Shown: positions 12,862-43,783 of the stretch, piece after piece
Layout: every line of letters begins with the position of its first letter
How positions within the stretch are numbered: the stretch's first letter is position 1
Origin: Isoetes taiwanensis
Lineage: Eukaryota; Streptophyta; Lycopodiopsida; Isoetales; Isoetaceae
Length of the DNA: 64,000 nt
Assembly (NCBI GenBank): GCA_021234155.1
Contig: JAJEKV010000096.1
Coordinates: 1,746,010 to 1,810,009, forward strand
Reading direction: 5' to 3'
Notes under the pieces: generated by a model
Databases searched by the model: none
What the model was told of the DNA's origin: nothing
Seen by the model: only the letters and a program-made list of their open reading frames with translations
Translations under genes and position numbers: made by a program

Positions 12862-12961
12862 AGACGTCGTTGAACGACGTCGCGAGGTCGTTTAACGACG
12901 TCTGCAATAGTCGTTAAACGACGTCTATAACGACGTCTTTGTGTTAAACGACGTGCCCTTT
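12862..12961. repeat. CACTA-type palindromic subterminal repeats, block 1a
   Basis: Clustered palindromes of the form GTCGTT(T/A)AACGAC are linked by GTCTATAACGACGTC. Such short clustered inverted motifs are typical of the subterminal regions where TnpA-like proteins bind in CACTA elements. The same motif recurs at 13,186, 27,000, 33,600 and 34,375. No CACTA terminus is visible next to this block. Confidence 0.7.
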
Positions 12962-13185
12962 TTTTTATTAAGTTATAATTATAAGTTATTATTATAATTA
13001 TAATTATTATACAAAGAAGGATTGTTACCCAGTGGAGGGCTGTCATTTATGCAAGAATCTAACTTCGGAAAGTTGCTCTTGAGCAGGATGTTGAAAGTCC
13101 TGTTTGCCTCCACCTCCGCACATTTTTTGTGATAGAAAATGTAGAAATCAAACTCAAATTTTTATCTTTCAAATTTTATCCGTCA

Positions 13186-13245
13186 TAGTCGTTAAACGAC
13201 GCGTCTATAACGACGCCTTTGTGTTAAACGACGTGCCCTTTAAAC
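13186..13245. repeat. Palindromic subterminal repeats, block 1b
   Basis: This is a near copy of 12,907-12,961 (about 58 bases, offset 278) with GTCGTTAAACGACG and a TGTTAAACGACGTGCCC end. It lies just 3' of the Argonaute exons, on the Argonaute strand. Confidence 0.75.
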
Positions 13246-13310: not shown

Positions 13311-14116
13311 TTTACGTATTCTTTGCAACCCTACATTAAGAACACTTGCAAACCGGGATTCATTTGACACCATCCCTGAAGTCCACAATACAATAAAATT
13401 TATTAAAATTGAACTGAAAAGCCGGGAGATAACTATACATAGCCATAAGGGGTAGGAACACGAATACAACAAAGCCGTGGAGGCAACTGTTTTGTTCCGA
13501 TACTTACATGAGCACGCAAACCCTTTCAACAATTCCACGCCACAGCAAAAGTTAATTATCCTTTCAATATCGATTGAAAAAGTTATTTATGTTACTTACG
13601 CAATCATGCCCCCGGAAGGTTCTTCGTTACAACGCATTCATAGTTTCACATTTTAAGTTGATTGTGTTTTGACCCGCGCGACAAAAACGATATCGTTGGC
13701 CAATCAGAGAGCCCATTGCCGCAAGTTAAAATAGGAATGTAATGAATTGAAATTTGAAATGTCAAGTGCACACACGGTTCAATCCTTACAATTGCAATTG
13801 ATGGTGAATTTGACGAGAATGGGGCTCCATGTGACACATCCATTCCAAAGATTATAGTTGGCTCCCTGGAGACCTTTGGAAGACCACGACGAAATTCCAT
13901 CGATAACATCGTATTATATCCTCCACACTACTGATTTGAAAGTAAGTCTTGAGTTCAATGAACAGGGGAGCCATTATGGGGTACCAAGTGAGTTACCTTG
14001 GCATTAATTTTCAAAGCCACATTCGTCAAGTCTTGATCATTTATATTACGGGGAGGAACTATACACTGATTAACAACTCCAACGTCTGACAGAAACAGTT
14101 TGTTAAACGGCCACTT
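13311..14116 (-). pseudogene. Argonaute PIWI-domain fragment, AGO4-clade, with introns
   Basis: Three exon-like blocks on the minus strand match the middle of an AGO4/6/9-type Argonaute. Block 1 (14,116-13,997) reads KLFLSDVGVVNQCIVPP and then NINDQDLTNVALKINAK, followed by a GTAACT donor. Block 2 (13,930-13,790) starts after a TTTCAG acceptor and reads GYNTMLSMEF, then PTIIFGMDVSHGAP and SPSIAIV, before a GTAAGG donor. GMDVSHG holds the first catalytic Asp of the PIWI slicer site. Block 3 (about 13,395-13,316) reads FRDGV and ESRFASVLNVGLQRI with a small frameshift; RDGV holds the second Asp. The WPLISRYRA exon expected between blocks 2 and 3 is missing, as are the PAZ and N domains and the C-terminus, so no functional protein is possible. 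AGO4-clade proteins bind 24-nt siRNA and guide DNA methylation. The fragment lies between CACTA-type palindromic blocks, which suggests transposon capture. Confidence 0.8.
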
Positions 14117-14448
14117 TTATCTATCCACTTTAATAAACCAGACTTGTGCACCATTGAGCTTCACTTGCATACTTTCATACTAAATCAAGCTTGCCAATCA
14201 CTTCACCATGATCAGAAGGGCAGCAAACATATGGCTCACCGGAGTTGCTCTTACGCATACAATCTACACAAGGCATGCCCAGCTCTGATCCATGCAAAGG
14301 CGCAAAGAAGAGCTTCTTTGATTTGCCATATTCTCTCGTGCATGATCACATACAACTTCATATATGGTTCTGACCTCTTCATAGATTACCGCTAAGGGTT
14401 TTGGACATACTTCTTCGTGGTTCAACGACGTCTCACCTTGAATTTCGA
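14117..14448. other. Link between Argonaute fragment and satellite array
   Basis: No gene is recognised. On the minus strand this could hold more upstream Argonaute sequence, but I could not match it. One palindrome-type motif, GTTCAACGACGTC, occurs at about 14,421, close to the array edge. Confidence 0.4.
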
Positions 14449-14585
14449 GTTCCCGGGGCCTTGGGGAGAGGAAATTTGGGGCAAGCACCTCCTTGAGGGA
14501 TTTTAGGGTCCAAGGCTCAAGGCCAACACCCCAACTCCACTTCAAGACACCCCGCGCAAGGTCCCTACGAATCGACAAGGAGAGG

Positions 14586-14650
14586 GCCTCCAAACGTAAA
14601 CCCCGGTGGGTTGCCGGGCTCTAGAAAGGGTTTACGCTTTTGGGGCCGAG
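14586..14650. repeat. Conserved inverted repeat of the satellite unit (first copy)
   Basis: GGCCTCCAAACGTAAACCC is followed after about 25 bases by its imperfect inverse GGGTTTACGTTTTGGGGGCC. This first copy carries one change, TTTACGCTTTTGG. The pair recurs once per unit, near 15,710, 16,820, 17,940, 19,070, 20,185, 21,285, 22,405 and 23,515. It recurs three times at short spacing near 24,645, 24,950 and 25,255. Between the arms lies a conserved GGGTTGCCGGGCTCTAGA. The arms total about 19-20 pairs. Confidence 0.9.
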
Positions 14651-17600
14651 TCCTGGTCTGTTGCACTTGGGACTGGCCGAAACCTTTTTAAATGAGAATA
14701 CGAGCAAGGGGAACCGACGGAGCGGAGTTTGGGCCTTTCCTCCTCCCGATGTGGCAAGTAGAAGGATCGGGGGCGCTTTTGGTGGCAAGACATTAAATAA
14801 ATTCGCAATTAATGCATTGCACGAAAAATAAATTCGGTTTTGCCAGCCGATCCCTAATTCATCTCCGGCCACACGCCAATTTTGAATTTTCGGAGAAGGT
14901 CTAGGTCAAAGGGTTAGCATTAGAGCGGTCGGGGCAGCCCGGATGCGGGGAACCGAGCCGGCACCCTTCCCCAAGTCAAACGAGGCCAGGGACCTTGCGG
15001 GGATCCCTCACAAGAGGGGAGAGTCCGGACCCCGTGAGGCGGATCCAAAAAGTTCCCGAGGCAGCCCTTCCGGCGGCGCTCCCGGGGCTGCAAAAATGAC
15101 CACCCTCCGGGCGGTTTCCCCTATCCGGCCGTTGGATCCTCCGGATTCGGGGCCCCTCTTCGGGAAGGTCCAAAAGATTCCAGATCGGTCCGGAGAACTT
15201 GTCAAACCGCTGGGCGCCCCGATGTCGGCCTTGTAGAAACCGCCTTTTTTTGTCGTTAGAGACGCAGGGATGCTCCTGATGGCAAATAGACCCCGCCAAA
15301 TCGTCCGGAATGGCGAAATTACCCTAGGGAGCAAGTTACACCTCCGGTTTTGGCGAAAGAAGGAAACACTCACGCCCTCCACGACATCCCGCATGCACAT
15401 CCTAGGCCAATTGACTACGAGTGTGATGGAAGTGAGCTACTTTGGCGCTTCTTGGAGTTCGGGTGGTCTTCTGGCCCGCGGAACTTGGTCCCCAGGGCAA
15501 TGTCGGCGCTCGAGTCCATTGGCGTAGTTTCGATCGCTGATTTCGGAGAGCGGAGGTCGCCTCGGGTCCGTCCCCTGGGCCTTGGGGAGAGGGAAATTTG
15601 GGGCAAGCAGGCCTCCGGAGGATTTTAGGGTCCGCGCCTCAAGGCCAACACCCCAACCCCACTTCAAGACACGGCGCAAGGTCCCGCCGAATCGACAAGG
15701 AGAGGGGGTCCTCCAAACGTAAACCCCGTGGGGTGCCGTGCTCTAGAAGGGTTTACGTTTTGGGGCCGAGTCCCCGGTTCATTGCTGCACTTGGGACCGC
15801 CGGTAGCGGCAGCCGAGAATACGGAGCAAGGGGAACGGAAAAGCGGAGTTTGGGCCTTTCCTCCTCCCCGATGTGGCAAGTAGAAGTTCTGGGGGCTTTT
15901 GCGCTGGCAAGACATTTCAGTAAATTCGCAATTAATGCATTGCACGAAAAATAAATTCCTTTTGCGGTGATCCCTAATTCATCTCCAAAGACGGCCCAAT
16001 TTTTGAATTTTGGGAGAAGGTCTAGGTCAAAGGGTTAGCATTAGAACGGTCGGGCAGCCCGTTGCGGGCAACCGAAGCTGCACCCTTCCCCAAGTCAAAC
16101 GAGGCCAGGACCTTGCGGGGATCCCTCACAAGAGGGGAGAGTCCTGGACCCATACAGGCGGGATCCAAAAAGTTCCCAGGCGGCCCTTCTGGCGGCGCTC
16201 CCCGGGGCTGCATCGCTAATGACCACCCTCCGGGCCGGTTCCCCTATCCGACCGTTGGATCCTCCGTTCGGGGCCCCTCTTGGGAAGGTCCAAAAGATTC
16301 CAGATCGGTCGGGAGAACTTGTCAAACCAGAAATCCCCGATGTCGGCCTTGTAGAAACCCGCCTTTGTTTTGTCGTTCGGACGCGGGATGCTCCGGAATG
16401 GCAAATAGACCCTGCCAAATCGTCCGGAATGGCGAAATTACCCTAGGGAGCAAGTTACACGGTCGGTTTTGCGAAAGAAGGAAACACTCACGCCCTCCAC
16501 GACAGTATCCCGCATGCACATCCTAGGCCAATTGACTACGAGTGTGATGGAAGTGAGCTACTTTGGCTTTGGAGTTCGGGTGGTCTTCTGCCACTAACTT
16601 GGTCCCCAGGGCAATGTCGACGCTCGAGTCCATTGGCGGTCGATCAGCGATTCCGGAGAGCGAGGTCGCCTGGTCCGTCCCCTGGGCCTTGGGGAGAGGA
16701 AATTTGGGGCAAGCAGCCTCCGGAGGGATTTTAGGGTCCAAGCTCAAGCGTCAACACCCCAACCCCACTTCAAGACACCTGCGGGCGCAAGGTCCCTACC
16801 GAATCGACAAGGAGAGGGCCTCCAAACGTAAACCCCGTGGGTTGCCAGGCTCTAGAAGGGTTTACGTTTTGGGGGCCGAGTCCCGTCTGTTGCACTTGGG
16901 ACCTGGCCGAGAAGCAGCAGCCGAGAATACGGAGCAAGGGGAACTGACGGAGCGGAGTTTGGGCCTTTCCTCCTCCCGATGTGGCAAAGTAGAAGTCTGG
17001 GGGCTTTTGCAAAGGCAAGACATTCAGTAAATCGCAATTAATGCATTGCACGAAAATAAATTCGGTTTTTGCCAGCGGATCCTAATTCATCTCCAAAGAC
17101 ACGGCCCAATTTTCGAATTTTCGGAGAAGGTCTAGGTCAAAGGGTTAGCATTAGAACGGTCGGGGCAGCCCGTTCGGGGCAACCGAGCCGCACCCTTCCC
17201 CAAGTCAAACGAGGCCAGGGACCTTTGCGGGGATCCCTCACAAGAGGGGAGAGTCCCACCCCGTGAGGCGGGATCCAAAAAGTTCCCCGAGGCAGCCCTT
17301 CTGGCTCGGCTCCCCTCGGCTGCGCGCTAATGACCACCCTCCCGGAGCCCGGTTCCCCTATCCGACCGTTGGATCCTCCGTTCAGGGGCCCCTCTTCGGG
17401 AAGGTCCAAAAGATTCCAGATCGGTCCGGGAGAACTTGTCAAACCGCGGGGCGTCCCGATGTCGGCCTTGTAGAAACCGCCTTTGTTTTGTCGTTTGTCG
17501 CCGCACCGGGATGCTCGAATGGCAAATAGACCCCCGCCAAATCGTCCGAATGGCGAAATTACCCTAGGGAGCAAGTTACACCTGGTCGGTTTTGCGAAAG

Positions 17601-20600
17601 AAGGAAACACTCACGCCCTCCACAAGATCCCGCATGCACATCCCAGGCCAATTGACTACGAGTGTGATGGAAGTGAGCTACTTTGGCGCTTCTTGGAGTT
17701 GGGTGGTCTTAAGCCCGCGGAACTTGGTCCCTGGGCAATGTCGACGCTAAGGTCCATTGGCGAGAGTCGATCGCGATTCCGAGAGCTGAGGTCGCCCGTC
17801 CGTCCCCTCCTGGGCCTTGGGGAGAGGGAAATTTGGGGCAAGCACCCTCCGGGATTTTTAGGGTCCAAGGCCTCAAGGCCAACACCCCAACCCCACTTCA
17901 AGACACGGCGCAAGGTCCCGCCGAATCGACAAGGAGAGGGCCTCAAACGTAAACCCCAATGGGTTGCCGGGCTCTAGAAGGGTTTACGTTTTGGGGTCCG
18001 GAATCCTGGTCCTGTTGCACTTGGGACTGGCCGAAAGCGGCCGTAGAGAAATCGGAGCAAGGGGCCCGACGGAGCAGAGTTTGGGCCTTTCCTCCTCCCG
18101 ATGTGGCAAGTAGAAGCTCTGGGGCTTTTACTGATGGCAAGACATTCGTAAATTCGCAATTAATGCATTGCACGCGAAAATAAATTCGGTTTTTTGCCGG
18201 TAGGATCCCTAATTCATCTCCAAAGACACGCCCAATTTTGAATTTTCGGGAGAAGGTCTAGGTCAAAGGGTTAGCATTAGAACGGTCGGGGGCAGCCCGT
18301 TGCGGGGCAACCAGCCGGGCACCCTTCCCCAAGTCAAACGAGGCCGGGGACCTTGCGGGGGGATCCCTCACAAGAGGGGAGAGTCCCCACCCGGGGAGCC
18401 GGGATCCAAAAAAGTTCCCCGAGGCAGCCCTTCTGGCAGCTGCCCCGGGCTGCACGCTAATGACCACCCTCCCGAGCCCTGTTCCCCTATCCGACCATTG
18501 GATCCTCCGCTCGGGGCCCCTCTTCGGGAAGGTCCAAAAGATTCCGTGATCGGTCCGGAGAACTTGTCAAACCGCTGGGCGCCCCGATGTCGGCCTTTGT
18601 AGAAACCGCCTTTGTTTTGTCGTTCGGCACCGGGGATGCTCGGAATGGCAAATAGACCCTGCCAAATCGTCCGGAATGGCGGAAATTACCCTAGGGAGCA
18701 AGTTACACCTGGTCGGTTTTCGCGAAGAAGGAAACACTCACGCCCTCCACGACAAGATATCCCCGCATGCACATCCTAGGCCAATTGACTCACGAGGTGT
18801 GATGGAAGTGAGCTACTTTGGCTTCTTGGAGTTCGGGTGGTCTTCTCGCCCGCGGAACTTGGTCCCTGGGCAATGTCGGCGTTCTAAGTCCATTGGCATA
18901 GTCGGTCAGCGATTCCTGAGAGCGGAGGTCGCCCGTCCGGTCCCCTGGGCCTTGGGAGAGGAAATTTGGGGCAAGCAGCCTCGGGAGGGATTTTAGGGTC
19001 CGCTCAAGGCGTCAACACCCCAACCCCACTTCAAGACACGGTAAAGGTCCCGGCCGACCGACAAGGAGAGGGCCTCCAAACGTAAACCCCGTGGGTTGCC
19101 GGGCTCTAGAAGGGTTTACGTTTTGGGGGCGAAGTCCTCGTCCTGTTGCACTTGGGACCGCCAAGAAGCGGCCTTGAATACGGAGCAAGGGGAACCGACG
19201 GGCGGAGTTTGGGCCTTTCCTCCTCCCGATGTGGCAGAGTAGAAGTCGGGGGCCGGCTGCGATGGCAAGACATTAAGAATTAATTAATTAATGCATTGCA
19301 CGAAAATAAATTCGGTTTTGCCCGGCCGGGATCCCTAATTCATCTCCAAAGACACGGCCCAATTTTGAATTTTTTGAGGAGAAGGTCTAGGTCAAAGGGT
19401 TAGCATTAGAAGCGGTCGGGGCAGCCCGCGGGGCAACCGAGCTGGCACCCTTCCCCAAGTCAAACGAGGCCAGGACCTTGCAGGGATCCCTCACAAGAGG
19501 GAGAGAGTCCGGACCCGGAGGCGGGATCCAAAAAGTTCGAGGCAGCCCTTCTGGCGCTCCCCGGGGCTGCGCTAATGACCACCCTCCGGAGCGGTTCCCC
19601 TATCCGACCGTTGGATCCTCCGTTCGGGGCCCCTCTTGGGGAAGGTCCAAAAGATTCCAGATCGGTCCGAGAACTTGTCAAACCCAGCGGGCCCCGGATG
19701 TCGGCCTTGTAGAAACCCTTTGTTTTGTCGTTAGCACGCAGGGATGCTCCTAATGGCAAATAGACCACCGCCAAATCGTCCTGGAATGGCGCGAAATTAC
19801 CCTAGGGAGCAAGTTACACGGTCGGTTTTGCGAAAGAAGGAAACACTCACGCCCTCCACGACAGTATCCCGCATGCACATCCTAGGCCAATTGACTACGA
19901 GTGTGATGGAAGTGAGCTACTTTGGCGCTTCTTGGAGTTCGGGTGGTCTTCGGCCACGGAACTTGGTCCCCAGAGGGGCAATGTCGGCGTTCGAGTCCAT
20001 TGGCGAGTCGGATCGCGATTCGGAGGCCGGAGGTCGCCCGTCCGGCCCCCAGGGCCTTGGGGAGAGAGGAAATTTGGGGCAAGCAGCCTCGGGAGGGATT
20101 TTAGGGTCCGCGCTCTGGCGTCAACACCCCAACCCCACTTCAAGACACGGCGCAAGGTCCCGGCCGAATCTGACAAGGAGAGGGCCTCCGAAACGTAAAC
20201 CCTGTGGGTTGCCAGGCTCTAGAAGGGTTTACGTTTTGGGGGCCGAGTCCTGGTCTGTTGCACTTGGGACCTGGCCGAGAAGCAGCAGCCGAGAATACGG
20301 AGCAAGGGAACCGGCCGGAGCGGAGTTTGGGCCTTTCCTCCTCCCGATGTGGCAAGTAGAAGTCGCTTTTGCAATGGGCAAGACATTAAATGTAAATTCG
20401 CAATTAATGCATTGCACGAAAATAAATTCCGGTTTTTGCGGTAGGGATCCCTAATTCATCTCCAGCCTACACGGCCCAATTTTGAATTTTCGGAGAGGGC
20501 CTAGGTCAAAGGGTTAGCATTAGAGCGGTCGGGGCAGCCGTTGCTGGGGCAACCGAGCTGGCACCCTTCCCAAGTCAAACGAGGCGGGACCTTGCGGGGA

Positions 20601-23600
20601 TCCCTCACAAGAGGGAGAGTCCGGACCCCGGGGATCCAAAAAGTTCCCCGGCAGCCCTTCTGGCGGCTCCCCGGGGCTGCAGCTAATGACCACCCTCCGG
20701 GCCGGTTCCCCTATCCGGCCGTTGGATCCTCCGTTCAGGGGCCCCTCTTGAAGGTCCAAAAGATTCCCAGATCGGGTCCGGAGAACTTGTCAAACCCAGC
20801 GGGCGTCTGATGTCGGCCTTGTAGAAACCGCCTTTGTTTTGTCGTTCGACACCGGGATGCTCGGAATGGCAAATAGACCCTGCCAAATCGTCAGGAATGG
20901 CGAAATTACCTAGGGAGCAAGTTACCGCGGGGTTTTGCGAAAGAAGGAAACACTCACGCCCTCCACGACCGGTATCCCGCATGCACATCCTAGGCCAATT
21001 GACTACGAGTGTGATGGAAGTGAGCTACTTTGGCTTCTTGGAGTTCGGGTGGTCTTCGGCCCACGGAACTTGGTCCCCGGGCAATGTCGACGTTCTGAGT
21101 CCATTGGCGAGTCGGTCCAGCGGTGACCAGGAGAGCCGAGGTCGCCCGTCAGCCCCGAGGGCCTTGGGGAGGAAATTTGGGGCAAGCAGCCTGGGAGGAT
21201 TTTAGGGTCCGCGCTCACGGCGTCAACACCCCAACCCCACTTCAAGACAGCGCAAGGTCCCTACCGAATCGACAAGGAGAGGGCCTCAAACGTAAACCCC
21301 GTGGGTTGCGGGGCTCTAGAAGGGTTTACGTTTTGGGGTCCGAGTCCCGTGCATTTGCACTTGGGACTGGCCGGAAGCGGCAAATGCCAGAATACTGAGA
21401 CAAGGGGAACCCCGGCGGAGCAGAGTTTGGGCCTTTCCCTCCTCCCGATGTGGCAAGTAGAAGTCGGGCTTTTGCGCTGGCAAGACATTACGTAAATTCG
21501 CAATTAATGCATTGCACGAAAATAAATTCGGTTTTTGCCGGTAGGATCCTAATTCATCTCCAGCCTACGGCCCAATTTTGAATTTTAGAGAAGGTCTAGG
21601 TCAAAGGGTTAGCATTAGAGCGGTCGGGGCAGCCGTTGCGGGGCAACCGAAGCTGGCACCCTTCCCCAAGTCAAAGCGAGGCCGGGGACCTTGCGGGGAT
21701 CCCTCACAAGAGGGGGGAGAGTCCGGACCCGGGAGGGATCCAAAAAGTTCCCGAGGCAGCCCTTCTGGCGGCGCTCCCGGGGCTGCACGCTAATGACCAC
21801 CCTCCCGGGAGGCCGGTTCCCCTATCCGACCATTGGATCCTCCGTTCAGGGCCCCTCTTGGGAAGGTCAAAAGATTCCAGATCGGTCCGGAGAACTTGTC
21901 AAACCGGCGGGCGTCGATGTCGGCCTTGTAGAAACCGCCTTTGTTTTGTCGTTCGGGCACGGGATGCTCGAGAATGGCAAATAGACCACACCAAATCGTC
22001 CCCGGAATGGCGAAATTACCCTAGGGGAGCAAGTTACCGCGGTCCGGTTTTGCGAAAGAAGGAAACACTCACGCCCTCCACGGCCGATATCCCCGCATGC
22101 ACATCCTAGGCCAATTGACTACGAGTGTGATGGAAGTGAGCTACTTTGGCGCTTCTTGGAGTTCGGGTGGTCTTACGGCCCGCGAACTTGGTCCCAGGGG
22201 CAATGTCGGCGTTCCGAGTCCATTGGCCGGTCGGTCGCGATTCCAGGAGGCGGAGGTCGCCTGGGTCCGTCCCAGGGGCCTTGGGGAGAGGAAATTTGGG
22301 GCAAGCAGCCTCGGGGGGATTTTAGGGTCCCAGCGCTCACGGCGTCAACACTAACCCCACTTCAAGACACGGCCAAGGTCCCGGCCGAATCGACAAGGAG
22401 AGGGCCTCAAAACGTAAACCCCGCGGGTTGCCGGGGCTCTAGAAGGGTTTACGTTTTGGGGCCGAGGTCCCCGGGTCTGGGACACTTGGGACCCGGCAGC
22501 AAAGGCCGAGAATCACGGAGCAAGGGGAACCGACGGGCCCGGAGTTTGGGCCTTTCCTCCTCCCCCGATGTGGCAAGTAGAAGTCGGGGCGCTTTTGCGG
22601 GGCAAGACATTCGTAAATTCGCAATTAATGCATTGCACGAAAATAAATTCGGTTTTTGCCGGTAGGATCCCTAATTCATCTCCAGCCTACGGCCCAATTT
22701 TGAATTTTTGAGAGAAGGTCTAGGTCAAAGGGTTAGCATTAGAACGGTCGGGGCAGCCCGTTCGCGGGGAGCAACCGAACTGGCACCCTTCCCCAAGTCA
22801 AACGAGGCCAGGACCTTGCGGGGATCCCTCACAAGAGGGGAGAGTCCTGACCCGGGGCGGGATCCAAAAAGTTCCCAGGCAGCCCTTCACGGGGGCGCTC
22901 CCGGGGCTGCGCTAATGACCACACCCTCCCGGCCGGTTCCCCTATCCGGCCGTTGGATCCTCCGTTCGGGGGCCCCTCTTGGGGAAGGTCAAAAGATTCC
23001 GGATCGGTCCGAGAACTTGTCAAACCGCTGGGCGCCCCGATGTCGGCCTTGTAGAAACCGCCTTTTTTTGTCGTTGAGACCGGGATGCTCGAAATGGCAA
23101 ATAGACCACATAAATCGTCCGGAATGGCGAAATTACCCTAGGGAGCAAGTTACGATTTGGGTTTTGCGAAAGAAGGAAACACTCCGCCCTCCACGGCGGT
23201 ATCCCGCATGCACATCCTAGGCCAATTGACTACGAAAGTGTGATGGAAGTGAGCTACTTTGGCTTCTTGGAGTTCGGTGGTCTTCGCCCGCGGAACTTGG
23301 TCCCGAGGGCAATGTCGGCGTTCGAGTCCATTGGCGGAGTCAGATCAGCGATTCCGGGAGGAGGAGGTCGCCCGTCCCCGTCCCGGGGCCTTGGGAGAGG
23401 AAATTTGGGGGCAAGCGACCTCCGGAGGGATTTTAGGGTCAGCTCAAGGCGTCAACACCCCAACCCCACTTCAAGACACGGCGCAAGGTCCCTACGAAGA
23501 TCGACAAGGAGAGGGCCTCGAAACGTAAACCCCGTGGGTTGCCGGGCTCTAGAAGGGTTTACGTTTTGGGGGCCGAGTCCCTGTCTACATTGCACTGGGA

Positions 23601-24599
23601 CCCGGCCGGAAGCGGCCGAGAAATCACGGAGCAAGGGGAACCGGCGGGCGGAGTTTGGGCCTTTCCTCCTCCCGATGTGGCAAGTAGAAGTCTGGGGCTT
23701 TTGCAAAGGGCAAGACATTAAATAAATTACGCAATTAATGCATTGCACGAAAATAAATTCCGGTTTTTTGCCAGCGGGATCCCTAATTCATCTCCAGCAC
23801 ACGGCCCAATTTTCGGAATTTTCGGAGAAGGTCTAGGTCAAAGGGTTAGCATTAGAACGGTCGGGGCAGCCCGGATTGCGGGGAACAACCGTGGCACCCT
23901 TCCCCAAGTCAAACGAGGCCGGACCTTGCGGGGATCCCTCACAAGAGGGGAGAGTCCGGACCCGTGAGGCGGGGATCCAAAAACGTTCCCGAGGCAGCCC
24001 TTCTGGCGGCGCTCCCGGTCAAAGCTGCGCTAATGACCACCCTCCGGAGCCCGGTTCCCCTATCCGGCCGTTGGATCCTCCGTTCGAGGCCCCTCTTGGG
24101 AAGGTCCAAAAGATTCCAGATCGGTCCGGAGAACTTGTCAAACCGCGGAGGCGTCGATGTCCGCCTTGTAAAAACCGCCTTGTTTTGTCGTTCGCACGGG
24201 ATGCTCCGGAATGGCAAATAGACCACGCCAAATCGTCCGGAATGGCGAAATTACCCTAGGGAGCAAGTTACACCGGTCCGGTTTTGCGAAAGAAGGAAAC
24301 ACTCCGCGCCCTCCACGACAAGATCCCGCATGCACATCCTAGGCCAATTGACTACGAGTGTGATGGAAGTGAGCTACTTTGGCGCTTCTTGGAGTTGGGT
24401 GGTCTTCCCGCCCACGGAACTTGGTCCCCGTGGGCAATGTCGGCGTTAAGGTCCATTGGCGAGTCAGATCAGCGATTCCGGAGAGCGGAGGTCGCCCGTC
24501 CGTCCCGGGGCCTTGGGAGAGAAATTTGGGGCAAAGCAGCCTCGGAGGGCTCTAGATTTTAGGGTCTGCAAGGCTGGGCGTCCAACACCCCAACTCCAC

Positions 24600-25640
24600 T
24601 TCAAGACACGGCGCAAGGTCCCGGCCGAATCTGACAAGGAGAGGGCCTCCGAAACGTAAACCCTGTGGGTTGCCAGGCTCTAGAAGGGTTTACGTTTTGG
24701 GGGCCGAGTCCTGGTCTTCTGGCCACGGAACTTGATCCCCAGGGCAATGTCGGCATTCCGAGTCCATTGGCAGAGCCAAATCGCGGTTCCGGTGAGGGGA
24801 GGTTGCCCGTCCTTCCCCAGGGCCTTGGGGAGAGGAAATTCGGGGCAAGCAGCTTCCGGAGGGATTTTAGTGTCCGCGCTCAAAAAATCAACACCCCAAC
24901 TCCACTTCAAGACATGGCGCAAGGTCCCGGCCGAATCTGACAAGGAGAGGGCCTCCGAAACGTAAACCCTGTGGGTTGCCAGGCTCTAGAAGGGTTTACG
25001 TTTTGGGGGCCGAGTCCTGGTCTTCGCCCACGCGAACTTGATCCCCAGGGGGCAATGTCGGCATTCTGAGTCCATTGGCAGAGCCAAATCGCGGTTCCAG
25101 TGAGGGGAGGTTGCCCGTCCTTCCCCAGGGCCTTGGGGAGAGGAAATTCGGGGCAAGCAGCTTCCGGAGGGATTTTAGTGTCCAAGGCCTCAAGCGTCAA
25201 CACCCCAACTCCACTTCAAGACATGGCGCAAGTCCCTACCAATCGACAAGGAGAGGGCCTCCAAACGTAAACCACGTGGGTTGCGGGCTCTAGAAGGGTT
25301 TACGTTTTGGGGCCGAAGTTCTGGCTTTTTGGCCCGCGAAACCTGGTTTCGAGCAATGTCAACGTTTTGAGTCCATTGGCAGAGCCAAATCGTGGTTCCG
25401 GAGAGGGGAGGTTGCCCGCTTCTTCCCCGGGCCTTAGGGAGAGGAAATTTGGGGAAAGCAGCCTCCGGAGGGATTTTAGGGTCCGCGCTCTGGCGTCAAC
25501 ACCCCAACTCCACTTCAAGACACGCCGCTAGGTCCCTACTCGCGGGTGACAAGGAGAGGGCCTCGAACGAAACCCCGTGGAGTTGCGGGGCCTAGAAGGG
25601 TTTACGTTTTGGGGCGAGTCCTAGTCCGCTGTGCGATTGG
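24600..25640 (+). repeat. Collapsed sub-array, period about 304 bp
   Basis: Near the right end of the satellite, four copies of AGGAGAGGGCCTCC start near 24,640, 24,944, 25,247 and 25,552. Each short unit joins the inverted-repeat region directly to the GGAACTTGATCCCCAGG part of the unit. About 800 bases, from the AT-rich island to the GAAACACTCACGCC part, are deleted. This derived repeat was itself amplified in tandem, which shows the array edge is evolving separately. Confidence 0.85.
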
Positions 25641-25910
25641 AACGTAGAAAGGCTGCGGCCCGAACGCATAGCAAGGGGGCCGGCCGGAACGGAGTTTGGA
25701 CTGTCCTCCTCCCGATGTGGCAATTAGAAGTGGGGGCTTTTGCAAAGGGCAACACACGATTAAATTCATAATTAATGCATTGCACGAAAATAAATTCTGA
25801 TTTTTGCCGGTTTGGATCCCTAATTCATCTCCAGCACACGGCCCAATTTTCGGAATTTTTGGAGAAGGTCTAGGTCAAAGGGTTAGCATTAGAACCGTCG
25901 GGGCAGCCCG

Positions 25911-26312
25911 TTGCGAGGCAACCGAGCTGATTTGGAAGATTTGGAAGATGCAGTTGACTTCAAGCCACAAAGAAACATAAATTTAGTGGCTGCTTCTATC
26001 AGTCAGGTTGGAGAAAAAATCCAAGCTGACTGTCCATCACAAACTTCTAAGAATGTGCATTTGAAAGATTTAGAACATGGAAGTGTCCCATTTGTAAGAG
26101 CTACAGGAGAGTCCAAACCACAAATAATCTCGAGGAAGCTTTGGTTCTACCAAATCAAGTCGAAATGTCGCAGAAAACCTCGAGGCTCGAAATGGCAAAT
26201 CGAACTGAAGAAGGCGATATCCAACAGAAGAATGCAAAATATCTTCAAGAATCCTTCAGATCATGTTCATGCATATGTATCAATGCTAGATTGTACCCAA
26301 GAGAAAATATAA
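25911..26312 (+). CDS. Unknown open frame fused to the satellite edge
   Basis: The open frame has 133 codons. Its first residues come from the last satellite sequence (GCAACCGAGCTG at about 25,918) and the rest from unique DNA. The product is hydrophilic, with a DLEDLEDAVDF start and a Lys/Arg-rich C-terminus. I recognise no domain. The 3' end overlaps the opposite-strand gene at 26,267. It is more likely a broken gene truncated by the array than a functional one. Confidence 0.25.
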   Translation: MRGNRADLEDLEDAVDFKPQRNINLVAASISQVGEKIQADCPSQTSKNVHLKDLEHGSVPFVRATGESKPQIISRKLWFYQIKSKCRRKPRGSKWQIELKKAISNRRMQNIFKNPSDHVHAYVSMLDCTQEKI

Positions 26313-26999: not shown

Positions 27000-27115
27000 G
27001 ATGACTTTTAAAGAACAGAGACGTCGTTTTAAGACGTATAGACGTCGTTTAACGACGTCTGAAGGTCGTTTAACGACGTCTATAACGACGTTCTCGGCTA
27101 TAACGACGTCGTACG
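27000..27115. repeat. CACTA-type palindromic subterminal repeats, block 2
   Basis: GACGTCGTTTAACGACGTC, GGTCGTTTAACGACGTC and ATAACGACGT follow one another here. The motif is the same as in blocks 1a/1b and in the terminus at 34,922. It separates two divergent genes (26,883 minus and 27,226 plus) and probably marks the left terminal region of the CACTA-like complex. No intact CACTA end was found beside it. Confidence 0.75.
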
Positions 27116-27225: not shown

Positions 27226-27737
27226 ATGGCCGCTTCTCCTGATGCATGCCCGCTTGATGCCGCACTGTAGGCCGTCGCGGCGGCGCCGCTGGAGCACCCG
27301 AGCGCCTCGATCGAAAGTGGCTAGAGACGAACCTAACCCAAGAAAGGCCGGAGTTCAAGCAAGCCATGACAAAGCTGCGTGATAGGGGGCAAGAAAGACC
27401 TCGCTCGCATTACTGGGAGGCCGGAACCTTCCCTCAATACAGGCTCGAGTGCCTGAAGAAATGCATGGTGAGCTCGTTGTGCTTGGCCCGTATGCTAGAG
27501 GATAGGGGCCTTTGGGAAGGGAAACATTTGCTGAAGCCCTACTTTCAAAAGTTGCACCGCACCAACCCGGGGCATGGGGAAGTGCTCGTACATGAATTCC
27601 TTGGGGAAACAGACACCACGCCGGAGGGCTTGGATTCCATGCTTCGGGAGGCTTGTTCTGACGGGGTGGAGGAAATCACCGTCGAGCACCTTCGAGCCTG
27701 CGAGTGGATCACACTGGATGCTGATATATACCACTAG
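27226..27737 (+). CDS. Unknown small gene at left end of CACTA complex, probable frameshift
   Basis: An ATG at 27,226 opens MAASPDACPLDAAL, then a stop. One base out of frame the reading continues GAPERLDRKWLETNL and into the main frame (ATG 27,366, 123 codons) with LRDRGQERPRSHYWEAG, FPQYRLECLKKCM and a C-terminal EITVEHLRACEWITLDADIYH. The break lies at CACTGTAGG, a CTG site of the kind that is error-prone in this window. No family is recognised. The sequence is GC-richer than its surroundings and lies just inside the palindromic block, which suits captured host sequence. Confidence 0.4.
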
Positions 27738-28751: not shown

Positions 28752-29030
28752 TTAAGTTGCACTTACAAATAGTGACACGCCTTTAGCATATGCAAATTCT
28801 TCGCTAGAAACATGTTCGCCACGTTGCCTTGCCATCTCTAGTTGTTCGAGCAGCCATTTATTGTTTATCTCACTTGGCAGGACCCCTAGATGATCTGGAA
28901 GTGGTTGTTTGCGATTCTTTTTTCGATAGCGTCTTCTCTCCTCATCTCTCTTTATTTTTTCTTCCTCGTATTTTTTATCCATTTCTCCATGGGAGTGGAG
29001 TTGTAGATGAAAACTTATTGACTTTTGCAC
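28752..29030 (-). pseudogene. Charged helical fragment between Tnp2 and DUF4216
   Basis: The 92-codon minus frame is rich in Lys, Glu and Arg (YEEEKIKRDEERRRYRKKNR), then reads LPDHLGVLPSEINNKWLLEQ. It looks like a nuclear, coiled-coil linker. Position and strand suit the same decayed CACTA polyprotein, but I cannot assign it to a family. Confidence 0.4.
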
Positions 29031-29289
29031 ATTCTTCTAGTGTGAACAATTTCTTACGTGGTCTTCCTTGGGAACTTCTCCAACTATAGTTGGAGTGTCT
29101 TCATCGGTCCATAATCGTGGAGCATTGGGGTGTAGATCGGCCAAGAACTCGGTGACATAGAATAATGACTCTCGTGCTAACCAACCCTCGGCCATGCAAC
29201 CCTCTGGCCTTGCCTTCCTCGACGTCTGAAGTCCTTGAGGACCTTCGGCGTTCTATAAAAAACATCCATCTAGGATTTGTTGTGCCCGC

Positions 29290-31508
29290 AAGCTCTACTT
29301 AGTCCACTAAATGCACTAGTAAGTGAGTTTGTATGTCCGAAAAACTTGTTGGGAATTCTTTCTCTAGCATACAACATGCCTCAACGACCTTAGTTCGCAT
29401 GTCCCAATTTCATTTGTCGGTATCTCCTTCCTTGTAATCCATCTAAATATGATTTAAAAAGAAAAAAGTTAAGTGAGAGTTCAAAGATCGAAAGTGTTTT
29501 CTAAATCCGTCTAACACGGAAAACTCGATAGGAGACATATTGCATGTAGTGGACCGTCGGCGAGACGACCCCTCAGAACAATAGGCATAACAAACTGCAA
29601 CATCTTATGCCAATCATGAGATTTCAACCCAGTTAACTCCCCTTCGTTAGAGAAACAATTACACAACGAATGCATATATCCCGTCGGAGTCTTTATTGCC
29701 TTGATAAGCTTCTCGAGCGGGTTTCATACATTTTCTAGACACGATCCAATCCACTTGTGGCCTTATTCCTTCTTGACATTTAACCATGCTTTAGATTTTG
29801 ATCCAGCTTCTTGTAGATCTTCTCGTGCTGCATCTGTGTCCTTACGTCCGGTGACATGCTTCCAAATAGACGCCGAAACGTTTTTAAAGATGTGCATGGG
29901 ATCAAGAAGATGATGGATCTTCAATTCGGCCCAATAGGGTAGAAGGAAGAAGGATGCTTTCCACTTCATTCCCTTAACCTTATTTCCTTGAAGACATCCC
30001 ACATGTTACCCCAATCTCTCATTGTCAACCTTTTGGGAGGCTCTTCAGTGCAATGTTTTTCTCTTGGACCTACGTATCGAAGTCGATTTTCCATTGGCAG
30101 ATATCTCTTGAAGTTTGCATAGACATTTTTGTGCAATGCCGTTGACCGGCGAGAGTTCAACTGTTCAAACCCACACAAGTGACATGCCGCATATCCAGAC
30201 ACTTGGAGTCCGTGAGAGTTCATACAAACCAGGGCCAATCGCTCGTTGTCCACATTAAGATTGCTCTCAAGGTAAATCTTCGTTCGGCCCGCGAAGTTCT
30301 CTTGAGACATCGTAAACTTCAATACCTTCACTCCACAATGTCAAAAGCTCATCAATAACTATTTTCAGATATGGATCTAGACTTTCCGGCTTCTTCGGTC
30401 CTGGAACTAATAGTACTACCATTAAATGGCTAGTCTTCATGAGTAACCACGGTGGTAAATTATAGTTGATCAACACTACTGGCCAAGTTGACCCGCCGCG
30501 GCTGATTGGCGTCCATAAGGATTAACACCATCCGTTGCCAACCCTAATCTGAGATTTCGTTGGCTCTCTTCCAAATTCCGCCATGTTTCATCAATATGCT
30601 TCCATTGCTTGCGGTCACTAACCACTACGAATTACATTGTCACTTTCGGCGCATTAGCGGCACACCAACCCATGGCTGAGCTAGAGATTCACATCGAAAC
30701 AATAGCCTTATCACGAGGGATCAATGGAAAGTAGCGAACCACCTTCATCGGGGCCGGTCTTTCCCTTGGCATCTGCATTGTACCTAGAGGCACCACATTT
30801 AGGGCATGTTTACGTGTTCTTGTAGATGTCATCCCCTGGATAATATACCATGCAATCATTTGGACAAGTGTGAATCTTATGGTAGCCTAAACCGATGGGC
30901 TTTACTTGATATATTTTTTATTTGGTCGCGACTTTTTGGGCATAGTGTTCCCTTGTGGGAGTATTTTCTCTTGCAATAACACATATAAAAAGCAGACCTT
31001 TACGTATACATTCAACTACAAATTCAATAAGTCAAGTGATTGCAATTGTACTTACTCTAACAAAGCCGTAACAACGGCATTGCTCCATTTGAATTTGGCT
31101 TGAAGGTTTAATATCAATAAAGATGTAAATCAATCTAGATATGCTTGCACTGGATATAATGCTTTATCGCCTCCTCCAATAAAACGTGATCTTCATGACC
31201 ATCGTTAGGAGTATTTATATCGTCATCTAGGTGGATTGTCGAAGATTGGGCCAAATGCATCTAACATGTCGGCTATGGGTTCTTCAACTTCCATGAAGTC
31301 GTCCATAGGGGCATTGTCATCATCTTCATCATCGTATTCTGTTCATCTTCATCATTGTACTCTTCATTATCGCGTTGTGCCCATGTTTGTACCATCTTTT
31401 GCTCAATGTATTCTAATTACGCTATCCATGATGACTTTTGATGTCGCCAATTCGATGCGGCTTGGATGTGGTCTTATATCCACTTGCCTACCCCTCCGCG
31501 TCGGTTAA
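29290..31508 (-). pseudogene. CACTA Tnp2 transposase, degenerate
   Basis: Read on the minus strand, successive Tnp2 landmarks appear in order but in changing frames with stops. They are an acidic N-terminal stretch (about 31,330), the zinc-type IHTCPNDCMVYY and CPKCGASRY (about 30,870-30,790), YFPLIPRDKAI, NLRLGLATDGVNPYGRQSA (about 30,560), YNLPPWLLMK and LLVPGPKKPE (30,460-30,390), and DELLTLWSEGIEVYDVS (about 30,330). After these come LACHLCGFEQ-type and RYLPMENRLRY segments, FFLLPYWAELKIHHLLDPMHIFKNV (29,950-29,880), then GELTGLKSHDWHKMLQ (about 29,640). Tnp2 catalyses cut-and-paste transposition at CACTA ends. The many stops and frame changes make this copy inactive, and base-calling errors may exaggerate the decay. 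Confidence 0.85.
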
Positions 31509-31747: not shown

Positions 31748-33073
31748 TCAAAGGACCTCCGGTATTGGTCTACCGTATTCATATTCAATGAACAATTCAT
31801 CACCAATACACAAAGTTTTTATAGCATAAACCATGATATATCTCCCGTCAATTTTACGGCTAAAAAAATCTTCTTGGTCTTTGTTTGCCTCGACAAATTC
31901 ACAATTGGTAGCTTGAGTTCTTCTCGATAGAGCTATTAATAAAAGCAGCAAGGTTTCCATGCAACTGAGGACGACCATCAATATATGTGAAGCTTGCGTA
32001 GTCACTGGGCTTGGATATTGTTCGTGCATTTGAATTTAGGCCATAGATGAGCATGCGCCACTGATGCTTACTCAATTTATGCCAAGTGTCTGAGTTATAT
32101 TCAGGACCTACATATGGCATTAAAGGAACAGTCGTACCATCTTTGACTTTCACACTAGTCATAATATATAATCCCAGGCCAGCACCGGGGACCCGACTAT
32201 TTTTAATCATGTACTGCCTACCCCAATATGTAAATTGCTCCCCATAAATAATTGGCTTGCCTCTAGGCCATGCATTGAATTTCTTACGATCTTTATCTCA
32301 GAAAGGGTTTTGGACCAAATGGACTAGTGAAGGTGGAAGATTATTTTCTTCGACATGATCTAGTACATTCCAATTTTGATGAACATTGTCATTCCCTCCA
32401 ATCTTGGCAACGGCCATTGCACGACGAGTTCTATCACGTAATGGGATACTCTTTGAGGAAGTTGATGGCTTTCTTTTTGTAGGGTTTTCTATGAACGCAT
32501 TCATAGTATCAACATCATCTACTTCCAATGACAACATAACCCCAAAATCTATATCTTTGCTTGAGCTCACTTCATTCTCAATTTCTTCCTAACAAAATAC
32601 AAGCAAACTAAGTTAAGACATCGATTCAAGTACATGAGAGTAGTTGATTATCGTTCATAAGATTCGTGTATTATACCTCGTTGGAATACCCCACATGTGC
32701 GTCCGAAACCTTTGGATTTGTTGGGCATTCACCATATTTCTCAACATGGTCGGGACAGTCTTTCTCATCCGTTTTATTTGTCCTTTGCACATCGAACAAT
32801 TGCAATATAACCGCTCTGTCAAGTACAACCGCAAAAAAAAAAAAACATCAAGATATAAAGTTAACTAATCATTGAAACATGTTTATGGTACATACATCGG
32901 TGACATTCATTTCATGCACACCACCCCGACCTCTAGGAAGACTAGGTCCACTTGGGTCTAATTGGACTATTTGTGGCAATTGTTGGGGTAACATTCTTGC
33001 ACAAGTCGCCATGTAACTTTCTCAAAGCTTTCTGTCTCACTTTACGTTCAAATTCCTTCTGACGTTCGTCCAT
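31748..33073 (-). pseudogene. SET-domain gene inside the CACTA complex, disrupted
   Basis: Three exons are proposed on the minus strand: 33,073-32,896 (MDERQKEFERKVRQKAL, one frame slip near 32,995), 32,815-32,677 (acidic, with CPDHVEKYGECPTNP), and 32,588-31,748. Donors GTATGT and GTATAA and acceptors ACAG and TTAG are present. The last exon holds the SET core: SRVPGAGLGLY (SAM loop), FTYIDGRPQLHGNLAAFINSS, ATNCEFVEA, then GDELFIEYEYG. The usual NHS of the SAM pocket reads NSS, in a region that also contains a one-base frameshift (about 31,940). An in-frame TGA at about 32,299 looks like CGA deamination. Intact SET proteins methylate lysines, mostly on histones. The gene runs with Tnp2 and sits within the element ends, so it is probable captured cargo. 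Activity is unlikely as read. Confidence 0.7.
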
Positions 33074-34374: not shown

Positions 34375-34922
34375 GTCACGTCGTTAAACGACGTTTAAGC
34401 TGACGTGTCTTGACACGCGGCGAGCAGCGGCTTGGCACCAAACACCATGCCACGCGGGCGTGACACGTCGGCGTTGTGCAACGTCGTTCAACGGCGGCAT
34501 CGCCGGGCGGCGTCTTGACACGCAGTACCCGCCTTTGGCACCGCCACCATGCCACGCAGGCGACGCGTGACACGCCGGCGTTGCAGTAACGCCGCGTTCA
34601 ACGGCCCGACGCGGCGGCGCTCTTGACACGCCTTGGCCGCCACCGGCAAATTGCCCATTTCCACGCATGACGGCGGCGCGGCGGTTCTCGTGGAAACGTC
34701 GTTGAACGACGTTTAGCTGACGTGTTTGACACGCAGGCCTGCCAGCTTGGCAGCAGTACCCATGCCACGCAGGCAAATCCGACACGTCAGCCCTGATGAC
34801 CGTCGTTGAACGACCTCGAAACGACGTTGTCGTCGTTGAACGACGATGTCGTCGATCAACGACGACAATCCGACGTTCATCGACGACGCGACGTCGTTGG
34901 ACGTCGACGATCCCTTGTAGTG
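34375..34922. repeat. CACTA right terminal region with intact terminus
   Basis: The minus strand begins CACTACAAGGGATCGTCGAC at 34,922, a canonical CACTA terminus. Inward lie dense palindromes (GTCGTTGAACGACG, GTCGTCGATCAACGACGAC, GTCGTTAAACGACG). Three GC-rich repeats of about 150-190 bases follow, with CTTGACACGC, CCATGCCACGC and TGACACGTC(G/A). These are expected binding sites for an element-encoded protein. The flanking triplet is CTC; the partner end was not found, so no target duplication can be confirmed. Confidence 0.85.
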
Positions 34923-41810: not shown

Positions 41811-42902
41811 TTACAAAAAAATAATTGACTTTGCAACTCTTTTTAGTGAGGAGATGAGCTCTTTAATATCTGACTCTGAATAAGCAGCTGATGCCAGAAC
41901 CTGAATTCCTGCAGGAAGACTACACTTGTCTAGCGTTGAACGTTTTCCCACAGAAACAAGAATAGATTCCTCCTCGAGCATTCTCTCCATAATATGCTGT
42001 AAAATGGCCACATCCTCTTCAAAATACCCCTTTGAGTTTCCCAGATGCAGGAAAATAACAGGTGATAAATCATGTCCTCCAATTGAAAATCCAGGGACTT
42101 CAGAAAGACCGTCTCGGAGAAGTTGAATGTTCCCATATATTAAAGTTGAAGTTGGTATATTAAAAAATTCTGAGAGCCCCTGTCCAGTCTTCCCAAAAAC
42201 TCCAATTGAGTTACTTTCCTCCATAAAAATCCAAAAGTGGTACTTATCTCTCAACTGAACAATTTTGTCCAGTGATGCCACCTGCCCTGAATTCTGGTAG
42301 ACTGCCTCTACAACAATGAATCGACGATTTACCTGTATCTTTCTTTTACAATCTTCCTGGGCTATCTCCTCAAGCAGTGATTCCAGTGATGCCATGTTAT
42401 TGTGCTTGAAGTACTTAATAGTGCTTCTCGAAAGAAGCAATCCAATTTGTATTCCCTAGTTTACTCCTTCATCAGCTAAAATAATGTCTCCATTTTTGCA
42501 AAAAGCATGAATTGCACTTGAGGCAGTGGCAAGGTCATAGGAATAGAGAATTGCATCTGGTGTCCCGAGGAACTGCGCCAAGGAACGCTCAATAAGACCC
42601 AAATAATCAGCTGAAGTGAAATTTACCACTTCTTTACCATTAACAATGGTATGCGGACCTGCTGCACTCTCCAAGACAGGAAGGAAGGAAGGAAGGAAGA
42701 CAGGAGGTTGTTGTTGCATTTCGTTCGTTATTGTAAGATGTAGAGGCTCCGGTTCCCATAACTCACATATATCGTCAATAACTGCTTGTTGACTGATAGG
42801 GTAGATAGAACGCTTTTTATTGGGTTGATAACTCTTCTGCAAAACGAGATATAAGATCGCACCAAGCAGAGACAGCATTACAAACTCCACTAAGAGATCC
42901 AT
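41811..42902 (-). pseudogene. LCB1: Processed pseudogene of serine palmitoyltransferase subunit LCB1
   Basis: A single intron-free minus frame starts at 42,902 (MDLLVEFVMLSLLGAILYLV, the membrane anchor) and ends at 41,811. It is interrupted once by TAG at about 42,452 where the family has Trp (DEGV-H-W-G). Landmarks in order are LWEPEPLHLTI, LESAAGPHTIVNGKEVVNF, NYLGLI-type ADYLGLIE, FLGTPDAILYSYDL, RSTIKYFKHNNMASL, IVVEAVYQNSGQVASLDKIV, ESNSIGVFGKTGQGL, and a C-terminal AYSESDIKELISSLKRVAKS. Two in-frame segments are absent: about 40 residues after YLGLIE and about 60 after the GQGLSEFFNIP stretch. It has 363 codons against about 480 in plants. A (TTCC)n expansion inserts FLPSFLPV. LCB1 pairs with LCB2 in the ER to start sphingolipid synthesis; this copy cannot. 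Confidence 0.9.
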
Positions 42903-42914
42903 GTTGAGGGGCGT

Positions 42915-42950
42915 TAGAATAGAATAGAATAGAATAGAATAGAATAGATG
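42915..42950 (-). repeat. (TTCTA)n tract 5' of the LCB1 pseudogene
   Basis: About seven perfect pentanucleotide units lie 13 bases upstream of the LCB1 ATG on its own strand. With the tail at 41,605 they bracket the retrocopy. Confidence 0.95.
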
Positions 42951-43016
42951 GCCTTGACTTTGCACATGACCAATAAGATCAACTGACCTACCTTTATTAA
43001 TTAGAGACATGTCCAT

Positions 43017-43783
43017 ATTTCAAAATGGCTTCCTACAATGTGGAACCCACAGAGGACTATTGCATCAGTTAAGAGGACTATTGCTATCAGTCCAAAGGGC
43101 CCATGTGTCTATTCATATTTCAAATCCATGCAATCATAGCTTGTAATAAATGCTATGTAATAAATGATCCTGTACACGAAATATTCTGTATTAAATGAGA
43201 ATGTGCACGTGTCATACTCAGCTAATTTGTAAGGAAGAAATGAGTGAGAACAAAAAATTGATACTGTTAGGAAGGATTAGTTTTCTATGTATTGTAATAT
43301 CTAAAATAACATGTCTTAGCTTAAGAAAATTCAACGGCTATGTATGAATATGACCCGTAATATTTTTTTTGTTAGTGTTGTAATATTAATTTTCCACACA
43401 TTGTCTACGCATATATAATGCAGTTTCCTATTTCTATTTTCTGTTTTTGTCACATAAAATGTTTTTGTGCCGCAATCCTTTTCGTTGTTAATGTGCTCCA
43501 CATGTTATCTGAACCATCTACTCCATTCAAAACTGCTAAAACCGTGGATAGTCTGGCTCCTTCTGTCGTGTATTTTGCAGAAGCAGAAGGAAGCGCAGAA
43601 GCAGAAGGAAGTGCTGCTAAGCTAGGGCAGAAGGAAGTGTCAGCTATGAAGCCACATTTCTGCATCGTCACAGTTTAGGTTGAGCTTCAAGTTAGTCGGA
43701 GTGGCCTTCTACATCTTATAAAAGTCCCAAACTATGTTCTATATGTTTAAGTTTTTTACCTTTGCCGGAAGTAGTATCGAAGC
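43017..43783. other. AT-rich DNA 5' of the Copia element; possible exon at 43,418-43,678
   Basis: The plus frame at 43,418-43,678 (86 codons) contains a small in-frame duplication (AEAEGSAEAEGSA). Joined across the Copia insertion, the flanks read FAGSSIEAEWIRLQ, so the element may have landed in once-coding DNA. No family is recognised. Confidence 0.3.

Follow-up and report, generated by a model that had tools for sequence, protein, structure and literature searches.

SET-domain genes borne by transposons are already in print, with SET histone methyltransferase genes described in the HarbingerS and MuDR transposons of Phytophthora (Kojima and Jurka 2014, as cited in the accessible text of PMC12730594). 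The CACTA family from Isoetes taiwanensis presented here shares with these elements, as they are described there, a SET-domain gene beside the transposase gene of a DNA transposon, but differs from them in superfamily and host, the Phytophthora elements residing in an oomycete. In addition, the transposase of the Isoetes family is Tnp2 and not a Harbinger transposase, and its SET exon appears to lie within a tnp2 intron, with N-terminal exons common to both coding sequences.

En/Spm produces two proteins by alternative splicing, with a large tnpD frame located in intron 1 of tnpA (PMC2613891, accessible text). According to the same text, En/Spm tnpA/tnpD from maize and Tgmt from soybean resemble the Isoetes family in being CACTA elements with tnp2, two proteins from one gene and a large intron; nevertheless, the alternative product is the DNA-binding TNPA or a like protein instead of a SET protein, and the splicing proposed for Isoetes is a prediction. 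Other partial parallels, each taken from the accessible portion of the source, include (i) the anti-silencing system VANDAL/VANC from Arabidopsis, likewise an additional protein supplied by a plant transposon and acting on the silencing of that transposon, VANC being a sequence-specific protein with a reported silencing effect whereas the element SET protein is known from its sequence (PMC10398659); (ii) the TET/JBP fungal transposons, including EnSpm elements, which also carry a chromatin- or DNA-modifying enzyme, but a DNA dioxygenase instead of a SET protein and in fungal hosts (PMC12730594); and (iii) SETMAR/Metnase, in which a SET domain is likewise joined to a transposon-derived part, the Hsmar1 transposase, but as a single primate host gene that is neither element-borne nor repeated (PMC9062482). 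Within the portions of the open PMC literature covered, no plant CACTA element is described as carrying a SET gene and no SET domain as forming an exon of tnp2, and a SET exon inside a CACTA tnp2 gene is apparently a new arrangement.

The window, by which we mean the whole stretch of 64,000 nucleotides analysed, is best read from its sequence as containing a CACTA (En/Spm-type) transposon that carries the SET gene and has decayed. The 5' terminus of the element (CACTACAAGGGATCGTCGACG..., 34914..34922) reads inwards on the minus strand from a CACTACAAG end at 34922, and is followed by a subterminal region of repeated AACGAC/GTCGTT motifs (34378..34900). Similar termini are found in copies L009, L012, L013, L016, L017 and L018, the homology of two copies of a second lineage (lineage B, below) begins at CACTACTAGAGAATGG, and the terminal pattern, with up to two mismatches, matches 567 times genome-wide compared with 0 for the backward control. 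Counted by eye, 13 of the 100 termini among the matches listed have SET 1.8-3.1 kb inside the terminus. Downstream of the SET gene and on the same strand, the element comprises (i) a degenerate first tnp2 exon at 31055..31492, matched in tblastn by a lineage A exon at 51% over 146 positions; (ii) a stop-interrupted tnp2 catalytic region at 29520..30991, with 18 stops in one protein match; and (iii) further tnp2 exons at 28887..29453, the frames of which were taken from copy L014. A plus-strand open frame at 27258..27737, similar to a frame in L009, matches no Pfam family. Tnp2 is degenerate in the window, and the Transposase_21 family (PF02992) is matched at E 3.7e-55 in L024 and 2.7e-56 in L014. 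The placement of the SET gene on the Tnp2 strand within a CACTA element, as proposed in the preliminary description, thus agrees with the CACTACAAG end and the degenerate Tnp2. The 3' terminus was not found within the 64-kb window; clusters of subterminal-like AACGACG/CGTCGTT motifs lie away from the 5' end, at 12865-13235 and 27022-27102, and either may mark the 3' end or a second element.

The SET gene runs from 33073 to 31748 on the minus strand in three exons, with the ATG at 33073 and the final stop at 31750-31748, exactly at the limits first reported, and with the reported motifs GAGLGLY, FINSS, NCEF and GDELFIEYEYG in place. Exon 1 (32896..33073) is 178 nt long with a broken frame, compared with 177 nt and an open frame in L010 and L017, and exon 2 (32677..32828), which contains a C-x-C-x2-C stretch, is also broken, with 152 nt versus 153. 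Intron 1 (32829..32895) ends in GCGG instead of the acceptor GCAG, and intron 2 (32589..32676) reads GTATAA...TTAG. Exon 3 (31751..32588), which encodes the SET domain, is 838 nt long versus 834, a net frame change, and is interrupted by an in-frame TGA at 32300; read through, it still scores 28.4 bits against the Pfam SET model (gathering score 22.4). The window copy is dead: with each exon broken and the intron 1 splice acceptor lost, it cannot, as it stands, give a SET protein. The preliminary description had mentioned one nearby frame break; the break is real, but it is not single, the damage extending over exons 1, 2 and 3 and the intron 1 acceptor. The three-exon model itself is supported by GT-AG introns at matching places in other copies and by complete open coding sequences in L010, L017, L024, L031 and L032.

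The search for further copies covered the assembly from which the window comes (1.66 Gb, 1110 contigs). A protein search with an intact SET exon, in which 139 of 1974 candidates were scored, returned 153 matches, a lower bound; among the matches listed, 150 rows, with 14 further pieces joined to the same copies, give at least 136 SET places in the genome. In 17 of the 136, the match is free of stops and spans 260 or more of 278 residues; the other 119 among the matches listed are interrupted or partial. The full-length places show 100 to 48% identity to the query, and some of the 17 near-full exons (L029, L030 and L036) show small local frame changes in the alignment. Three SET places occupy one strand within about 10 kb at C915:1257550-1267861, a nested or tandem cluster.

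Three deep SET lineages are distinguished, 46-61% identical to each other: (i) lineage A, with the sub-branches L024/L031 and L032/L033; (ii) lineage B (L021, L022, L023 and L027); and (iii) C1019 (L035). The SET exon is 47-49% identical between A and B, 60-61% between C1019 and B, and 46-49% between C1019 and A. Complete coding sequences from ATG to stop comprise 381-388 residues in the five lineage A copies named above and 357 residues in L022 and L023 of lineage B, so that seven sampled copies from four sub-lineages are open through all three exons. Among 12 lineage A copies compared, the window included, L010, L017 and L024 run through all exons without a stop; of lineage B, four copies were checked, and besides the two open ones these include L021, interrupted by a stop in exon 2, and L027, interrupted by one in exon 3.

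The functional motifs of SET domains include the SAM-binding GxG loop, the Asn of the NHS motif and a C-terminal Tyr. Undamaged copies of the family retain the SAM loop, FINSS, N-C-x-F and GDELFI. The exact readings are GAGLGLY or NAGLGLI, FINSS and GDELFI.YEY in the undamaged exons of A and B, with EAGFGLI in the SAM loop and YRY at the C-terminal motif of C1019. NSS stands in place of NHS in all 9 sequences of one comparison and in all 17 of the alignment, which marks it as a family-wide trait as far as the sequences compared can tell; it is not a defect of the window copy, and its earlier interpretation as a sign of lost activity in that copy is not supported. One exon per lineage exceeds the gathering score of Pfam SET (PF00856; 22.4), with 29.2 bits for A, 31.6 for B and 27.3 for C1019. 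Neither profile A1, at E up to 1, nor phmmer with a B protein, at E up to 10, matched a SET chain in the Protein Data Bank; the element SET domains therefore appear to form a divergent group without a match, by sequence, to a SET domain of known structure. NCBIfam yielded nothing useful, and a profile of the element SET matched no open reading frame of at least 80 residues in the 11 other SET-hit loci (L001-L008, L025, L026 and L028), which represent part only of the host SET genes.

SET and Tnp2 are closely linked in the genome. The Tnp2 search, with 85 of 3567 candidates scored, returned 99 matches, which after joining 15 further pieces correspond to 84 places among the matches listed. Forty-one of these 84 places are preceded, at a distance of 0.8-2.6 kb and in the same orientation, by a SET place, against 0.017 expected by chance, and none among the same listed matches has a SET in the opposite orientation within 5 kb; conversely, 41 of the 136 SET places among the matches listed have Tnp2 downstream. 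The single Tnp2 place with SET downstream lies inside the three-SET cluster on contig C915. Forty-three Tnp2 places have no SET match upstream, and for 8 of them the upstream flank was inspected: six do contain SET, L045 has a tnp2 exon alone within its 2.8 kb upstream flank, and L047 is a Tnp2 place without SET that belongs to a sister subfamily lacking it, subfamily D. Other family members do carry the SET gene at these 41 places, but subfamily D has multiplied without it. At two SET copies the downstream sequence departs from tnp2: L018 diverges shortly after the start of the tnp2 exon, and the SET exon of L027 is followed by sequence that differs from the tnp2 exon found at this place in the remaining B copies, L027 being either a deletion derivative or a case of another gene joined to the end of SET.

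Comparison with subfamily D places the SET exon inside the tnp2 gene; neither this position nor the resemblance of exon 2 to a transposase domain (below) had been recognised in the preliminary description. The D elements (L047/L053) have an open Tnp2 frame 83-84% identical to that of lineage B and comprise exon 1, exon 2, a 71-bp intron and then the tnp2 exon, all in phase 0, as are the introns of all gene models. Because exons 1 and 2 run straight into the tnp2 exon in D, the SET exon of the other lineages sits in a tnp2 intron. By eye, the start of the 71-bp intron resembles the start of B intron 2, and its end resembles the end of the B intron that follows SET. A genome search with the D exon 2-tnp2 junction had 58 candidates and gave 40 rows. 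Of these, 17 cross the SET site of B, 11 of them nearly full length with 86-100% identity; 14 end at or before position 175, including the B copies L021, L022, L023, L027 and L048; and the remaining rows start at 183 (5) or at 228-230 (4). The B copies match the junction solely as 1-175 and 183-412, and a search of the 2.8-kb and 3.7-kb D flanks found no SET. These comparisons indicate a block of about 1 kb, holding the SET exon, that is present or absent inside one tnp2 intron. Since D multiplied without it, SET would be accessory and non-essential to the element, unless the D copies depend on mobilisation in trans.

The exons upstream of SET point in the same direction, to the transposase. 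Exon 2 of intact copies resembles part of PF13963, the transposase-associated domain, with sub-threshold Pfam matches at E 0.021 for the A copy L017, 1.2e-4 for B and 1.1e-4 for D, which span model positions 33 to 61 or 62 of 74 and all stay below the gathering score; the whole lineage A protein gave no PF13963 match in Pfam. Other Tnp2 elements of the genome (L037, L038, L042 and L043) hold PF13963 in the exon that precedes the tnp2 exons, and no SET was found in 8 loci of this PF13963-Tnp2 kind, about 3 kb each.

Substitution patterns were analysed by the Nei-Gojobori method among 12 SET exons, all intact. dN/dS is 0.22-0.30 for pairs at dS 0.18-0.41, 0.19-0.21 between B and C1019 (dS 1.5-1.6), and 0.25 to 0.67 in close pairs (dS < 0.1); dS is saturated between A and either B or C1019. 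In neutral simulations that forbid stops, 400 for each of 8 pairs that share branches and are thus non-independent, none of the 400 reached the observed value in 5 of the 8 pairs, that is, in all five deep pairs. For the young pairs L017-L010, L017-L014 and L022-L023, 36, 14 and 57 of 400 simulations reached it, so neutrality is not rejected for any of them singly. Judged from these values, the SET exon is under purifying selection in several lineages, and with Tnp2 dN/dS in the same elements at 0.17-0.26 (4 pairs), SET seems about as constrained as the transposase. The possibility raised at the outset, that other copies might keep an open SET frame under purifying selection, is borne out by the deep intact pairs.

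The Tnp2 tree has the topology (canonical, (A, (C1019, (D, B)))), with bootstrap values of 86-100 on these branches, and the SET tree, (A, (C1019, B)), agrees with it. The simplest account of the two trees would be one gain of the SET exon before the split of A, B and C1019, followed by a single loss in D. The C1019 branch is long and its Tnp2 degenerate, and exchange between elements is a possible alternative to a single gain and loss.

We lean towards a reading in which tnp2 is a gene with an optional SET exon, alternative splicing yielding either Tnp2 or a protein that joins the transposase N-terminus to SET and acts on the chromatin of the element or on the transposase. Exons 1 and 2 would encode the transposase N-terminus with part of the transposase-associated zinc-type domain, exon 3 a divergent SET domain ending in a stop, and the later exons the catalytic part of Tnp2. 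Skipping of exon 3 would produce Tnp2, by analogy with En/Spm, and its use the N-terminus-SET protein of 381-388 residues in A and 357 in B. Through the common N-terminus the SET protein may be brought to the DNA of the element or to its transposase, where it could methylate nearby histone lysines or lysines of the transposase, and such methylation might keep element copies transcribed or tune transposition. The many near-identical D copies without SET, unless moved in trans, make a role in regulation or silencing escape likelier than one in cut-and-paste. A more specific form of this splicing reading, in which one CACTA gene gives either a transposase or a lysine methyltransferase that bears the transposase N-terminal domain and is sent to the element's own copies, the SET exon being long kept and lost as a unit, is offered tentatively.

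Intron retention in the P element yields a truncated repressor, and a comparable role could be imagined for the SET exon. It does terminate the reading frame behind a transposase N-terminus, and the replacement of NHS by NSS in every sequence compared would suit a SET domain reduced to a dead scaffold, so that a truncated N-terminus might compete with Tnp2 and limit transposition, much as somatic retention of the third P-element intron inhibits transposition (PMC4158355, accessible text). A mere stop exon, however, needs no conservation of SET residues, and the purifying selection and the preservation of the SAM loop, the N, the NC and the final Y across three lineages make such regulatory truncation unlikely.

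SET could also be a separate gene, transcribed from an independent promoter and equipped with a copy of the N-terminal domain for itself, Tnp2 being translated from an internal ATG or expressed from another promoter. Exons 1-3 do make a complete frame from ATG to stop, and in several copies of lineage A an in-frame ATG lies close to where the first tnp2 exon begins; on the other hand, the corresponding exons 1 and 2 serve tnp2 in D, and in B, D and C1019 the conserved start of the first tnp2 exon lacks an ATG, so that translation of the transposase must begin upstream, most simply in exon 1. We consider two separate genes improbable. The view that SET is a functionless passenger, a host fragment captured once and now decaying, finds some support in the dead window copy, the 119 of 136 interrupted or partial SET places among the matches listed, the spread of D without SET and the captured host DNA known in CACTA elements (PMC8616336, accessible text on Pack-TYPE elements), but it is very improbable, and as the main reading it was rejected, given the open frames and purifying selection in lineages about 47% identical in protein and the concordance of the SET and Tnp2 trees.

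Returning to the splicing reading, a SET exon that is retained and selected hints at an element that might alter chromatin to its own advantage. For plants, it is still debated whether transposons bring along means of their own to counter host silencing; VANC is one such case, and it is not known to contain a SET domain. If the splicing model is true, an enzyme would be aimed at the element by borrowing the N-terminus of its transposase. Since SET-bearing and SET-less sister subfamilies occur together in one genome, the effect of SET on copy number, transcription and chromatin marks is directly comparable between them.

The window displays several other features. Piwi/AGO4-like fragments occur on the minus strand at about 13646-14116, with a weak Pfam Piwi match below the cut-off, and are probably the AGO4 fragment mentioned in the preliminary description, the assignment of which to the same element is conjectural. 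A G+C-rich stretch (53-58%) extends from 14000 to 26000 and includes a 306-bp tandem repeat at 24400-25626; sequence like this stretch is found beyond tnp2 in L011, L013, L014, L016 and L020. A plus-strand frame of 418 residues at 4906-6162 matches the reverse-transcriptase family PF00078 weakly, below the cut-off, and may belong to a Penelope-like element, and two minus-strand frames at 41811-43019 presumably belong to a serine palmitoyltransferase (LCB1-like) gene.
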